Under the pieces are notes generated by a model that saw only the letters and a list, made by a program, of their open reading frames with translations, ran no database searches and had not been told where the DNA came from. Made by a program: the position numbers and the translations under genes. Source: Methanosarcina barkeri MS (GTDB lineage Archaea > Halobacteriota > Methanosarcinia > Methanosarcinales > Methanosarcinaceae). Taken from it: DNA of 64,000 nucleotides. The stretch spans positions 1,537,168 to 1,601,167 of the forward strand of contig NZ_CP009528.1 of NCBI RefSeq assembly GCF_000970025.1, written 5' to 3'. Below, in pieces: positions 1 through 36,932 of this stretch (position 1 is its first letter; every line of letters begins with the position of its first letter).

Positions 1-1457
1 GCATTTGGTCCCCAGCAGGGATCAAGCCGGCGAACCAGATGTCCGCGGTCAAGTGGATTATCTTCATACAATTTGGGTCCAGCCTGATATTTCTGGTCGA
101 GACGCGGATCAAAGTACCATTTGTCGCGGGTGCGTTTGATCTTCTCCAGCTTCTTGCCGTCAATATTGGCCGCGGTATAGAAGGCCAGCCTTCGATCGGC
201 ATTCATCACAATTGAAAAGTGCAGATAGGTGAGAATCTGACCTCCGTTCTTGAGCGTTGCGACTTTGGACTGGAGATTCTCGGCCAGTTTGGGAAGCGGC
301 AGATGGTACAGAGAACCCAGGAAATCGGGGTTGTAACCATCCGCCAGGCGGTAATGTTCCATGGGCAGTTTTCCCAGCTCCATTACTGCATCGGGGATGG
401 GTTCTGGGGCGGTTATGATCGCAGGGCCGACCGGACCGGTGCCATGGCTGCGAAGCCTTCTCAGAGCTTCGGCTGCCATCGGCTCGTTCTCACTGCGCGA
501 CTCCAGTGCCTTGAAGATGCGGCTGATGCGCACGCCCTCATTGGCCACCCAGGCAATGGTACTGGGTGCATCGATGCCTTCTTGATAGGGCTGACCGTCT
601 GTCTTGAGGATGTTACCCTGAGCATCTTTCATTGACACTCCTGAATGGTGCAGGCCCACAACCAGCCACTGATCGTTGAATACGGGTGAGCCTGAGGCTC
701 CGCATTGAGTGTCGGTCAGATAGTGCAGCCAGTCGTCGAAGATATCTACAACTTTGTTTTCCCGCAGGCAGCAATTTTTGAGACCACCATCAGGATGCTG
801 AATAATAGAGACGTATTCGCCGGTCCGGACCTTGCCGGTGTCTTCCACGAGACGTAGTAATCCGTAATCGGTAAGCTCTGTCCCTTCTGTGGCAATGGGA
901 GCCACGGATACAAATGTGAAGTCCATTTCCGGATCGGTGACGAAGACCTCGTCGGGTCGCAGGTCGAAGGATTTTGATGTCTTTTTTCGACCGTTTATAT
1001 CTTGTTCATATTCGAACTCTGCAAAACTCTTCTTTGCTAGCTCTGCTGTATCGAGGACATGGTTATTCGTTAGCAGCAGATTTGGGCCGACAAGAAAACC
1101 TGTACCGTAACCTTCTGGTCTGCCGAAGAGGTTCACGACCTGTATTCTGCAAACTGGTCTGGCTGCGAGCAGTCCAAGTTCCAGATAGGAGGTATCGACA
1201 AGATCGCTCTTTCCCATGATCCTCTCCAGGGCTAGGTTATCATTTGGTTCAAGAAAGATCAGTCGTCTCTCTATGGGTTGTGCCTCTGTCAAGGGACTAA
1301 TGATTTCGCGCCTGAATCTTTCGCCTGGCTTCTCCATTTCAGCGGTTTTCTGTCGTATATAATACCTTTCAGAGGCTTTTCTTTGTTGCTCTTCTTTTCG
1401 GGCATAATACCTTTCAGAGGCATTCCTATGTTGCTCTTTTTGGGCATTTTCAAGCAT
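1..1457 (-). CDS. Trypsin-like protease fused to DNA/RNA non-specific nuclease (3' end beyond window)
   Basis: The minus frame is open from the ATG at 1457 to the window edge (485 complete codons, no stop). The start follows an AGGAG six bases upstream. Residues 1-50 are a charged, probably helical region with two near-identical RKASERYY/RNASERYY segments. A trypsin-like fold follows: His133 in TNNHV, Asp179 in PEMDF and Ser255 in GASGSPVF form a plausible catalytic triad. The last residues visible carry DRGH (470-473), the catalytic motif of the endonuclease G/NUC1 family, so the nuclease domain is only partly inside the window. Base composition is clearly GC-richer than the flanking DNA and codon choice differs, which suggests transfer. 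Protease-nuclease fusions of this type are known mainly from bacteria and are suspected conflict effectors; the biological role here is inference. Confidence 0.85.
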   Translation of the reverse strand, partial: MLENAQKEQHRNASERYYARKEEQQRKASERYYIRQKTAEMEKPGERFRREIISPLTEAQPIERRLIFLEPNDNLALERIMGKSDLVDTSYLELGLLAARPVCRIQVVNLFGRPEGYGTGFLVGPNLLLTNNHVLDTAELAKKSFAEFEYEQDINGRKKTSKSFDLRPDEVFVTDPEMDFTFVSVAPIATEGTELTDYGLLRLVEDTGKVRTGEYVSIIQHPDGGLKNCCLRENKVVDIFDDWLHYLTDTQCGASGSPVFNDQWLVVGLHHSGVSMKDAQGNILKTDGQPYQEGIDAPSTIAWVANEGVRISRIFKALESRSENEPMAAEALRRLRSHGTGPVGPAIITAPEPIPDAVMELGKLPMEHYRLADGYNPDFLGSLYHLPLPKLAENLQSKVATLKNGGQILTYLHFSIVMNADRRLAFYTAANIDGKKLEKIKRTRDKWYFDPRLDQKYQAGPKLYEDNPLDRGHLVRRLDPCWGPN

Positions 1458-2245
1458 ATCCTTCTCCTCATCATGACCCAGCAGTTTGAAATTATTATAA
1501 CTTAAGGAAAGCGATTTTGATTTTTATAATAAGCACATTAATATACTTTTAATATAATACTATAAAGTAAATAATATAATCTCCAATTTTTAGTATTTTT
1601 ACACATAATTCAATATAATGTTAGAAATGATAAATATAATTATTTGGAATTTTATATTAGTATTTAATTTTTATTTTCTTTTGGACTGTCTCCTGAACAT
1701 ATGTTCTCTCGATATAAAGAACTGTACCCTCCTTCTATATATCCCGGAAGCCTCTCAATGTCACAGATCTGGAACATCGAGAAAAAATAGTCAAACAGTT
1801 ATAAAGGAAGCGCTGACGTAGATTAGTCATTTTACTTATATTAATTATTTATAAATTATTCCTGAATATATTTAATCATCTGGCTACAAACGATGACTTG
1901 AACCTTCGTATAAAAATTGTATAACTATTTTAAAATAAAACTAATTTTCGCATATATATTGGGAATCATCTTTGTATCTATATATTAAAAATTTTTATGC
2001 GCACTTAAAAACAAAAACTGCAAATAATTATTAATTTTAGATAAGTCTACTTTATAAAAATCAGTAATGTAGTTTTTTCACAGTTGAATTTACTTTTTTG
2101 GCGTTGTGTATATCCAAAATCTTAGTGCAAAGTACGTATTTTAACCTATGGACCCTGTCAATCATAGATTCTAGCATAATTCTATTTCGAAAACTAGTGC
2201 ATTGATTCTCAAATACATGCATAATAAGAAAATAATTACAGCTTA

Positions 2246-2549: not shown

Positions 2550-3161
2550 TTAGCTATACCTTCCCTCAAGCACATCCCTGATCGTCTTTACGGTCATGGC
2601 TCCAGGGGTTCCTTTCATATTATGAGGTGGCCAGTCTCCTGACTTTATTTCTTCGGAATTTTCATCATGTTCGTCTTCAAGGAGCAGGATAACCTTTATG
2701 TCTTCAGGAATATCATCAACCATTTTTGCTCCGCATCCCGTAAGTTCGCTAAAAGCTTCTCTCCCTTTTTCTTCATCAAAAGGCGCAGTACAACCTTTTA
2801 CGATATTTGTTCGAAAGCCTCTTTCAAGGAAACCAAGGCTATTAACGTATATGCAGACTTCCTCAACCAGGCCTGTCATGAATACTTCATCGATTCCTAG
2901 CTCTGCAGCTTTCAGTTCGAGTTCGGGGTTCATAAAGGCGTTTAGGTGATCTTTCGGAATCCTGATAACACTGACTGTTCCCCCTTTTACCACCTTTATT
3001 ATCAGCCTGGCTATTTTGTCAACAATTGCCTTTGCCATAGGGGCTACAAGTTTTCCCTCATATAATGTTCCTTCATGTTCGTAGGTTTCATATACGAAAT
3101 CGTTAGTCATATCTATAATAACCAGGGCTTTCAAGGTTTCACCATTCCTTTTTGATTCCAC
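2550..3161 (-). CDS. Isochorismatase-family cysteine hydrolase with displaced active-site segment
   Basis: 203 residues. The N-terminus carries the family Asp (ALVIIDMTNDF, D17), followed by PKDHLNAF (K70, matching the family K..YSAF) and GLVEEVCIYV (C103), giving the Asp-Lys-Cys triad. Members include nicotinamidases and isochorismatases that hydrolyse amides or vinyl ethers. The unusual point is the segment LLLEDEHDENSEE...DWPPHNMKGTPGA, residues about 157-190. In canonical members this stretch, with metal-binding and oxyanion residues, lies between the Asp and the Lys. Here it is at the C-terminus, and the canonical WPPHC Cys is Asn. The Asp-Lys spacing (53 residues) is short by about the length of that segment. 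No neighbouring gene hints at the substrate. The preceding bases show only a weak ribosome binding site. Confidence 0.8.
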   Translation of the reverse strand: MESKRNGETLKALVIIDMTNDFVYETYEHEGTLYEGKLVAPMAKAIVDKIARLIIKVVKGGTVSVIRIPKDHLNAFMNPELELKAAELGIDEVFMTGLVEEVCIYVNSLGFLERGFRTNIVKGCTAPFDEEKGREAFSELTGCGAKMVDDIPEDIKVILLLEDEHDENSEEIKSGDWPPHNMKGTPGAMTVKTIRDVLEGRYS

Positions 3162-3553: not shown

Positions 3554-4130
3554 ATGGGCACTGTGAATGTGGAAAAACTGCCTGAGGAAATCGCAGTCTC
3601 CCCGAGTGGAGTAACTGTCTATGTGGTTAATGGAAAAAATAGCACTGTTTCTATAATTGACACTGCAACCGACGCTGTTACAGTCACCTTTGAGGGTAGG
3701 AAATAATCCTTACGGGGTTGCAGTCAGTCCAGACGGAAAAAACATTTATCTGGCTAACCGGCAGGGCAATTCTGTCTCTGTAATTAATGCGACCACAAAC
3801 ACGTCGTAACCACGGTGAATGTAAGGAGCTGACTTGTTGGTGTTTCAGTGAACCCTGAAGGGACAAGTGCGTATGTGGTTAACTACAATGATGGCACCGT
3901 CTCTGTAATCAATACCGGTACAAACAAAGTTACAGCTATTGTGAAGGTAGAAAGCAATCCAATGGTAATCAGGTAGTTCACAGGTAAACTACCTGAAACA
4001 GATTTACCTTCCATACCCCGGAATGGGGAAGAACTCACTCCCAGTATTTATGCATATATTCCTAATGGAAGAGGCGATAGTGTCTCTATAATTGACACTG
4101 CCACAAAAACCTTAATATCTACCGTGGCCT
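3554..4130 (+). pseudogene. Decayed YVTN beta-propeller repeat protein
   Basis: Translation over three frames gives successive YVTN-type blades: AVSPSGVTVYVVNGKNSTVS, then (after a one-base shift near 3700) GVAVSPDGKNIYLANRQGNS, then VSVNPEGTSAYVVNYNDGT, and finally NGRGDSVSIIDTATKTLIS. Stops occur at 3704 and after the blades near 3809 and 3975. Intact relatives are surface-layer or exported proteins with many such blades, common in Methanosarcina. No signal peptide or full set of blades remains, so this is a fragment of a larger gene. Confidence 0.8.
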
Positions 4131-6768: not shown

Positions 6769-7551
6769 TCAAGCGGTAATGTATTGCTCATTAAGTAGCG
6801 TAAAATTTTTGTCATCTAATTTTGCATTATGAAGGGTTTTTACTTTAGAGAGCTGGTCAAATGATAAGTTTTTCACATTAGTTAGCTTAGCTCCTTGAAG
6901 GTTTGCTTCCTGAAGGTTAGCTTCTTGAAGGTTAGCTTCTTGAAGGTCAGACTTTTGAAGATCAGCTACATAAAGATCAGCTGCCTGGAGGTCAGCCCCA
7001 CGAAGGTTAGCTCCATGAAGATTAGCTCCCTGAAAGTTAGCTCCTTGAAGATTAGCTCCTTGCAAGTTAGCCAAATGGATATTGGATAACTGGAGTTTCG
7101 CTCCTTTAAGGTTAGCTCCCTTAAGGTTAGCCCTTGTAAGATTAGCTCCCTGGAGATTAGCTCCCTGGAGATTAGCTCCTTGAAGATTAGTGCCTATACC
7201 CTCTAAAAGGTACGAATTTGAGAGGTCGGCTCCTTGCAGGTTAGCCTCCTGGAGGTTTGCCTCTTGAAAGTTAGCCCCGCGAAGGTCAGCCCCGCGAAGG
7301 TCAGCTCTATAAAGGTTAGCTCCTTGAAGATCAGCCTGTGTAAGGTTAGCTTTTATGAGATAAGCTTCCTGAAGGTTAGCGTCTTGAAAGTTAGCCCATA
7401 TAAGGTTATTTTTTTCAAGATGGGCGCCTGGAAGGTCAACTCCTCTATAGTTTTTTCTCTCTATAATATTCATATGTAATAATTGGCGCTCCATAAAAAT
7501 AAATATTACTATTCTAGGAAGAAACCTTCCGTTATCCGGGGGTTCGTTCAT
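6769..7551 (-). CDS. Pentapeptide-repeat protein
   Basis: 260 residues. From about residue 45 to 225 nearly every fifth residue fits A(N/D)Lxx, for example ANLQGANLYRADLRGADLRG, about 35 repeats, with a short break at SNSYLLEGIG. Such repeats form a right-handed quadrilateral beta-helix. There is no signal peptide, so it is probably cytoplasmic. The start is uncertain: Met1 (7551), Met20 (MERQLL) or Met27 (MNIIER) could serve, and none has a clear ribosome binding site. Family members include DNA-gyrase-protecting proteins, but most have no known role and nothing here indicates one. The DNA is correspondingly repetitive with a 15-base period. Confidence 0.85.
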   Translation of the reverse strand: MNEPPDNGRFLPRIVIFIFMERQLLHMNIIERKNYRGVDLPGAHLEKNNLIWANFQDANLQEAYLIKANLTQADLQGANLYRADLRGADLRGANFQEANLQEANLQGADLSNSYLLEGIGTNLQGANLQGANLQGANLTRANLKGANLKGAKLQLSNIHLANLQGANLQGANFQGANLHGANLRGADLQAADLYVADLQKSDLQEANLQEANLQEANLQGAKLTNVKNLSFDQLSKVKTLHNAKLDDKNFTLLNEQYITA

Positions 7552-35726: not shown

Positions 35727-36932
35727 TTATTCATCCAGCCCTTTTCTTCCAAAAATGTAATTTGCAACCCTTATAGCATCTATTTCTCCGGTTTCCTTTT
35801 CCGGAGAGTCGCTCAGTTTTACGACAGGAATACCGTCAATGCTGTGCAGCTTTATGACCATGTTAAGAGGAGGGCTTTCTCGGAAAAAATCGGAGTTGTT
35901 GGTAAGGCTTGTGCCTATGCCGAAACTGCAGTTGATTTTACCTTCACAATATTTTTTGAGCTGGATAGCCGTATCCGCATTGAGGGCATCACTGAAAACA
36001 ATTAACTTTTTCATGGGATCTATGCCCATTTTCCGGTAGTGCTCTATCACAGCATCCACAAAATCGTAAGGGTCTCCGCTGTCGTGCCTGAACCCGTCGT
36101 AAACTTTTGACAACCTCAGGTCCATATCTTTAAAAAAGGCTTTTGAGCCGAAAGTGTCCGTAAGGGCGATTCCCAGGTCCCCTTTATAAACATCTATCCA
36201 GTTTTCAAAAGCAAACCGGTTTGCATACCTTAGCCCTACAAGTGCTGAGGTACCCATAATCCATTCGTGCCCGACAGTTCCGATCGGTTTCAGGCCGTAT
36301 TTTTTTGCAAAATACACATTGCTTGTTCCTGTCAGGGTTTTTATCCCTGTCAGGGTTTTCATCACATGGTCGTGGAGTTCGGAACTTCTTCGCCTGCGGG
36401 TCCCAAATTCCGAAAAAAGACAGTTGTTTTCCTCAAGGGCTTTTCCCATCTCAAGAATTTTATTTTCATAGGCAGTCAATACGGATTCGGAAGTACAACC
36501 CTTTTGGGAATCTCTATTCCACTCTTTTTCAATGGTTGTGAAATATAGTTCCGAAACCGTAGCCATAAGGACAATTTCCCAGAGAATCGTGCTGTGCCAG
36601 GGTCCTTTTATCCGAATGTCCAGATCTTTTTCTTCGGTAAGGCAGACTTTTACCTCACCTGGCTTGAAGCGGAAATTCTTAAGATATTCAAGGTACATGG
36701 GTTTCAGGTAAGGGCATTTCTCTGAAAGCCAGTTGTATTCTTCTTCTGTTAATGCTAATTTCGAGATCTCTTCGCGTATAGTCCTTTTCAGTTCTTCTAC
36801 AAACTCCGTAGTAAAGCGCTGGGAACCCCGGTTAGTAAACCGGTATTCAGCCTCAGCTTTAGGAAAAAGTTCAAGCACTGCAAGTTGCATGGTGAATTTA
36901 TAAAGGTCGTTATCAAGTATGGATTGTATCAC
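35727..36932 (-). CDS. pncB: Nicotinate phosphoribosyltransferase
   Basis: 401 residues, the usual length. It makes nicotinate mononucleotide from nicotinate, PRPP and ATP in NAD salvage. Motifs: the N-terminal [45 protein letters not shown] (the regulatory phospho-His region), [31 protein letters not shown] and [11 protein letters not shown]-type [17 protein letters not shown], then GIGTSLTNN. Monocistronic by appearance. The start at 36932 fits the family N-terminus. Confidence 0.95.

Follow-up and report, generated by a model that had tools for sequence, protein, structure and literature searches.

The window analysed here, a 64,000-nucleotide stretch of Methanosarcina barkeri MS (contig NZ_CP009528.1, positions 1,537,168 to 1,601,167), carries on its minus strand a gene for a protein of the isochorismatase fold in which the parts of a single domain follow one another in an altered order. 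An earlier reading made from the letters alone, referred to below as the sequence-only reading, had placed an open reading frame at 2550-3161; the frame is present there and its strand stands, while its start has been moved. The GTG start at 3161 was dropped in favour of the conserved TTG at 3132-3134, which has GGTGAAA ahead of it and is identical in 26 of the 26 homologues examined (L001-L026); in some homologues an in-frame stop lies upstream of this TTG. The conserved TTG and the upstream stops make 3134 to 2550 the most likely extent of the gene, giving a protein of 194 residues (Table 1). Renumbered from the TTG, the residues first given as D17, K70 and C103 become D8, K61 and C94, and the moved segment occupies approximately residues 145-194, containing D154-E-H156, E162, W168-P-P-H171 and G-T-P-G-A. 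Automatic annotation may make the product of this gene 9 or more residues too long, TTG being the likely start in 26 of 26 homologues.

Table 1. Features of the permuted gene; positions are those of the window, and residues are numbered from the TTG start.
Feature	Position	Strand	Remarks
Coding sequence of the permuted isochorismatase-fold protein, 194 residues, TTG start	2550..3134	minus	TTG kept in 26/26; preceded by a stop in some homologues
GGTGAAA, probable ribosome-binding site before the TTG	3137..3143	minus	same place in homologues as GGTGAAA or GGTGGAA, GATGAAA, GGGGAAA
Part A, residues 1-52: beta-1 with predicted catalytic D8, F13, hairpin insertion (about 15-27), helix 1	2979..3134	minus	
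Part B, residues 53-144: Lys strand (K61), Cys helix (C94), strands 4-6	2703..2978	minus	fits PF00857 profile positions 90-172
Part S, residues 145-194: moved beta-2 strand and metal/substrate loop (D154, H156, E162, W168, H171, GTPGA), terminal helix	2553..2702	minus	
Linker, residues 140-147 (DDIPEDIK), from strand 6 to the moved strand	2694..2717	minus	P143 invariant; positions 142 and 146 are I/V
Codon of D8, predicted catalytic Asp	3111..3113	minus	26/26
Codon of K61, predicted catalytic Lys	2952..2954	minus	26/26
Codon of C94, predicted nucleophile Cys	2853..2855	minus	26/26
Putative metal/substrate motif D154-x-H156 ... E162 ... W168-P-P-H171	2622..2675	minus	D/H/E/W/H in 26/26; roles by homology to PncA D49, H51, W68, H71 (PMC3025910)

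The chain reads D..K..C..(D-x-H..W-P-P-H..K-G-T-P-G-A), and in all 30 genomes carrying the gene the metal segment lies after the Cys rather than between the Asp and the Lys. D8 and K61 lie 53 residues apart, compared with 79-84 for the same pair in 28 canonical relatives, which confirms the shortening noticed earlier, and the Lys-Cys spacing is 33 both here and in those relatives. The PF00857 match reaches 52.8 bits against a curated cut-off of 27, split into two stretches of which the best spans only profile positions 90-172. Against a profile of canonical relatives, the chain gives three separate matches in changed order (residues 1-57, 59-129 and 137-184), the best scoring 38.5 bits, and in phmmer comparisons the nicotinamidases 3s2s, 3o90 and 5zn8 each align as three out-of-order stretches. 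With the canonical order written as A-S-B and the order found here as A-B-S, the change is, as judged from the sequence, a non-circular permutation, because A-B-S is no rotation of A-S-B; a circular permutation was ruled out on this ground. Duplication of the segment was also rejected, since the gap between helix 1 and K61 is only 11 residues and leaves no room for a second copy.

The original place of the segment was located by excising the C-terminal segment S, re-inserting it at each of 145 places and scoring the products against the profile of canonical relatives. The nine best places were residues 50-58, the canonical slot, with up to 87.5 bits in one collinear match, whereas shuffled segments inserted at residue 52 scored a mean of 54 and a maximum of 66 bits. 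With S returned to this slot, the phmmer match to 3s2s improved from 1.7e-10 to 3e-16 and spanned its length, the PF00857 match became a single stretch of 65.4 bits, and a plasmid tblastn search returned 41 records, compared with 1 for the natural order. Additionally, hhalign placed the profile of the C-terminal segment on columns 44-96 of the canonical profile, again the canonical slot (Prob 95.4, E 1.7e-8), and 28 of 28 canonical segments supplied as loose fragments aligned to residues 147-190. These results uphold the proposal of an isochorismatase fold with its metal segment after the Cys, and they support a segmental rearrangement inside a compact fold while specifying it as the non-circular change from A-S-B to A-B-S.

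The sequence-only reading had called for a search for homologues of the same order, and these occur throughout Methanosarcina and its sister genus: the permuted order is present in 26 of 31 Methanosarcina genomes and all four of the sister genus (30/35 together), and absent from the remaining 77 genomes of the family. When one genome from each of 84,980 species was scanned with a pattern, only Methanosarcinaceae-like records matched. Several genomes with the permuted gene also encode canonical-order paralogues, which were matched full-length, so the family search does see the usual order where it is present; two g146 genomes of the family with partial matches have proteins in canonical order. 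The pattern that would have spoken against a rearrangement, a canonical homologue carrying the segment in duplicate, was seen in no homologue.

Among 26 sequences, D8, N11, D12, K61, C94, D154, H156, E162, W168 and H171 are invariant, and F13 is kept in 25. The median pairwise ratio of non-synonymous to synonymous substitution (dN/dS) is 0.13, falling to 0.11 for the segment alone, and purifying selection is stronger on the moved segment than on the core. The fixation of the order in 30 of 35 genomes, the invariant active-site residues and a dN/dS of about 0.13 together indicate that the rearrangement is old and functional. An assembly error or a pseudogene was ruled out by the 30 genomes sharing one order and by the dN/dS of 0.13. 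No analysis gave support to reading the protein as an artefact, a pseudogene or a C-terminal extension with chance similarity, and those genomes, the selection on the segment and the hhalign E-value refute that reading. Separately, one sister-genus genome holds a degraded partial second copy of the permuted gene with three stop codons (G363:C40:15505-15771).

The interpretation preferred here, with a probability of about 0.62, is a non-circularly permuted isochorismatase-fold enzyme whose segment folds into its original place and which works in the manner of a nicotinamidase. For its structure, an AlphaFold2 alignment was used in which canonical relatives entered piece by piece, leaving no canonical row to dictate the order; the resulting model reached a predicted local distance difference test score (pLDDT) of 91.2 and a predicted TM-score (pTM) of 0.89. 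VIA-align superposed residues 1-141 on the P. horikoshii nicotinamidase 1ilw (131 aligned, 2.0 Å, Z 13.9) and the same residues on other nicotinamidases (core Z about 12-14); being sequential, it gives no location for the moved segment. In the model the segment's strand is built into the nicotinamidase-like fold. According to the DSSP string, strands 55-61 (Lys) and 148-154 (moved) match in length, and the two single bridge residues, 10 and 156, are offset by 146, as are strands 2-7 and 148-153, which suggests that S lies beside beta-1, in the canonical slot. The structural check proposed earlier thus yielded a confident nicotinamidase-like fold containing the segment's strand, while we infer that the segment reaches an active site, its own or that of a partner.

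A sequential superposition is blind to which of two strands is which, and K61-P70 forms the least certain stretch of the model (block mean 62). Both would suit an exchange in which the Lys strand (55-61), which follows helix 1 directly, takes the beta-2 slot beside beta-1, the moved strand becomes a new edge strand and the active site is rebuilt. Such an exchange would shift the metal ligands one strand from D8 although all are invariant, and the 10/156 bridge pattern fits S beside beta-1; we regard it as very unlikely. In this fold the strand order is 321456 (SCOP c.33), which puts a long distance between where strand 6 ends and where strand 2 starts, and nicotinamidases are often oligomers. 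These features favour a domain-swapped dimer, in which the same permuted protein would use its C-terminal segment to complete the active site of the partner subunit. Within one chain, the 8-residue linker leaving strand 6 would have to bridge four places in the sheet to where the moved strand starts; that sheet is six-stranded and parallel in PncA (PMC3025910). Confidence in the monomer model nevertheless stays high through the linker (residues 131-150, block means of 97 and 96); a chain end belonging to another subunit would not usually look like this, and a swap appears unlikely.

Several points weigh against a segment returned to its own chain's slot in a working nicotinamidase. With the 22 permuted sequences alone, AlphaFold2 gave a pLDDT of 59.9 and a pTM of 0.60, a model not used for conclusions, and the canonical fragments in the second alignment may have steered the good one. 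The position of S in the canonical slot in cis, the binding of a metal and catalysis are inferred. Five Methanosarcina genomes are without the permuted gene. The uncertain K61-P70 stretch belongs on the same side, as do the substitutions around the Cys and at the Thr47 position and the wider distribution of nicotinate phosphoribosyltransferase, which are described below.

In PncA, Asp8, Lys96 and Cys138 are catalytic, Asp49, His51, His57 and His71 are metal ligands, and Phe13 and Trp68 stack the substrate (PMC3025910). The permuted family retains equivalents of all these residues except the variable ligand His57, for whose position E162 is a candidate. Residues near the Cys differ, with V90 for Ala134, E/D91 for Thr and E92 for Asp, and L152 stands in place of Thr47; A134V, the change corresponding to V90, cripples M. 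tuberculosis PncA (PMC3025910). The PncA-type A/L-T-D/N-x-C is replaced by V-E/D-E-V-C, and the NCBIfam equivalog PRK11609 is not reached (24.3 bits vs a cut-off of 174). With the PncA-equivalent residues kept and differences before the Cys and at Thr47, metal-dependent amide hydrolysis by a nicotinamidase-type cysteine amidohydrolase is likely to be the activity and is the best supported one; nicotinamide is the best single guess for the substrate, which is the least certain part.

The GLV[ED]EVC found instead of G(V/I)xT(D/N)xC around the Cys, the change from Thr47 to Leu152, scores below every NCBIfam equivalog cut-off and the lack of a conserved operon could also be explained by a permuted protein that keeps the fold in another role, either as an amidohydrolase for a different small amide or as a non-catalytic binder. 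The triad, the metal motif and the stacking F13 (25/26) and W168 (26/26) are nevertheless kept, as expected for nicotinamide or pyrazinamide, and another role is likewise judged unlikely. The permuted protein is the only PF00857 member of this genome. A nicotinate phosphoribosyltransferase (NAPRTase, PF04095 + PF17767) lies in the window at 35730-36899 on the minus strand, continuing beyond, 33 kb from the permuted gene. The enzyme is also encoded in 58 genomes of the family that lack the permuted gene, and co-occurrence was dropped as proof of function because it is weak. The distance between the two genes is 10-20 kb in G001, G007, G016, G022 and G023.

On the preferred interpretation, the beta-2/metal-loop segment would have left the gap between helix 1 and the Lys strand in the ancestor of Methanosarcina and its sister genus, and would now follow strand 6, reaching its original spatial place beside beta-1 through the 8-residue linker. 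D154, H156 and H171 would bind a metal, and W168 would lie opposite F13 over the D8-K61-C94 triad. Catalysis may proceed as in nicotinamidase, by attack of the Cys on the carboxamide, formation of a thioester and hydrolysis by water, probably converting nicotinamide to nicotinate and feeding the NAPRTase of the same genome. The path from A-S-B to A-B-S could have run by transposing S directly, or through a tandem duplication whose first copy lost S and whose second lost A and B; intermediate forms (A-S-B-S or tandem copies) were not seen among 393 genomes sampled from the phylum. Identity to the nearest canonical relatives is only about 27-33%. It is probable that a single-domain metalloenzyme with a three-part active site tolerated an internal exchange, keeping all active-site residues, passing through non-collinear intermediates and becoming fixed in one genus, whether in cis, with a central strand that is made last and slots into mid-sheet, or as an obligate swapped dimer.

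According to PMC10085705, a non-circular permutation inside a domain is encountered less often than a circular one; one natural case that has been reported is based on the superposition of 42 residues from two different proteins (PMC2096629). The present protein is a rare natural case of survival through a changed order of parts with every active-site residue kept, and a favourable one: the homology can be read directly from the sequence of a small enzyme, structures of canonical relatives have been solved, and there are about 30 natural variants. Comparison with a canonical-order version of the chain would bear directly on folding, stability and activity, and on whether a parallel sheet can take in its central strand last. 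Profile searches that depend on order give such proteins only piecewise scores, and more of them may hide as ordinary family members.

The neighbourhoods of homologues were compared and showed no conserved operon around the permuted gene. Named by eye from translations, its neighbours include genes of the MscS, CorA-like and DUF432-like types; several genomes also have an aldehyde:ferredoxin oxidoreductase with a MoaD/ThiS-like gene upstream. Elsewhere in the window, positions 1-1523 (minus strand) belong to a protein, cut by the window edge, in which a DNA/RNA non-specific endonuclease domain (PF01223) comes after a trypsin-like domain (PF13365), an unusual protease-nuclease pairing. Positions 3560-3800 (plus strand) hold an apparently interrupted fragment resembling YVTN-type beta-propeller repeats, which looks like a decaying surface-protein gene, and positions 6769-7551 (minus strand) encode a pentapeptide-repeat protein of 260 residues with an A-N-L-Q-G/E pattern.

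Among known systems, all three parts are homologous to those of PncA (PF00857; Streptococcus 3s2s/3o90, B. subtilis 5zn8/6a8l, P. horikoshii 1ilw/1im5, M. tuberculosis 3pl1), with which the permuted protein shares the D-K-C triad, the D-x-H..W-P-P-H metal/substrate motif, the K-to-C spacing of 33 and the core fold. Unlike PncA, it has the order A-B-S, L, V, E/D and E at the Thr47, Ala134, Thr135 and Asp136 positions, a hairpin insertion after beta-1 and a free C-terminal helix after GTPGA. On these sequence features it would be placed in the isochorismatase/nicotinamidase kind and outside PncA proper, because both its order and its Cys motif differ. In the literature searched, which leaves most subscription papers outside, no report of a permuted isochorismatase or nicotinamidase was found.

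Parallels for the rearrangement itself are the BPP-1 phage capsid protein, which is a non-circular permutation relative to HK97 gp5 (N-beta-alpha vs N-alpha-beta; PMC3863775), and the DNA methyltransferase classes, described as non-circularly permuted by Bujnicki 2002 as cited in PMC10085705. As in both, two adjacent elements are exchanged; the spatial fold is kept in those proteins, and here the predicted model keeps its core, with S probably in the canonical place. Unlike in both, the parts can be recognised by sequence, the protein is a 194-residue enzyme with an active site that would draw on all three of them, and only two sister genera show the change. Circularly permuted enzymes share an altered order of parts within one domain; for them, duplication with a new start and stop is enough, whereas A-B-S would also need an internal loss.
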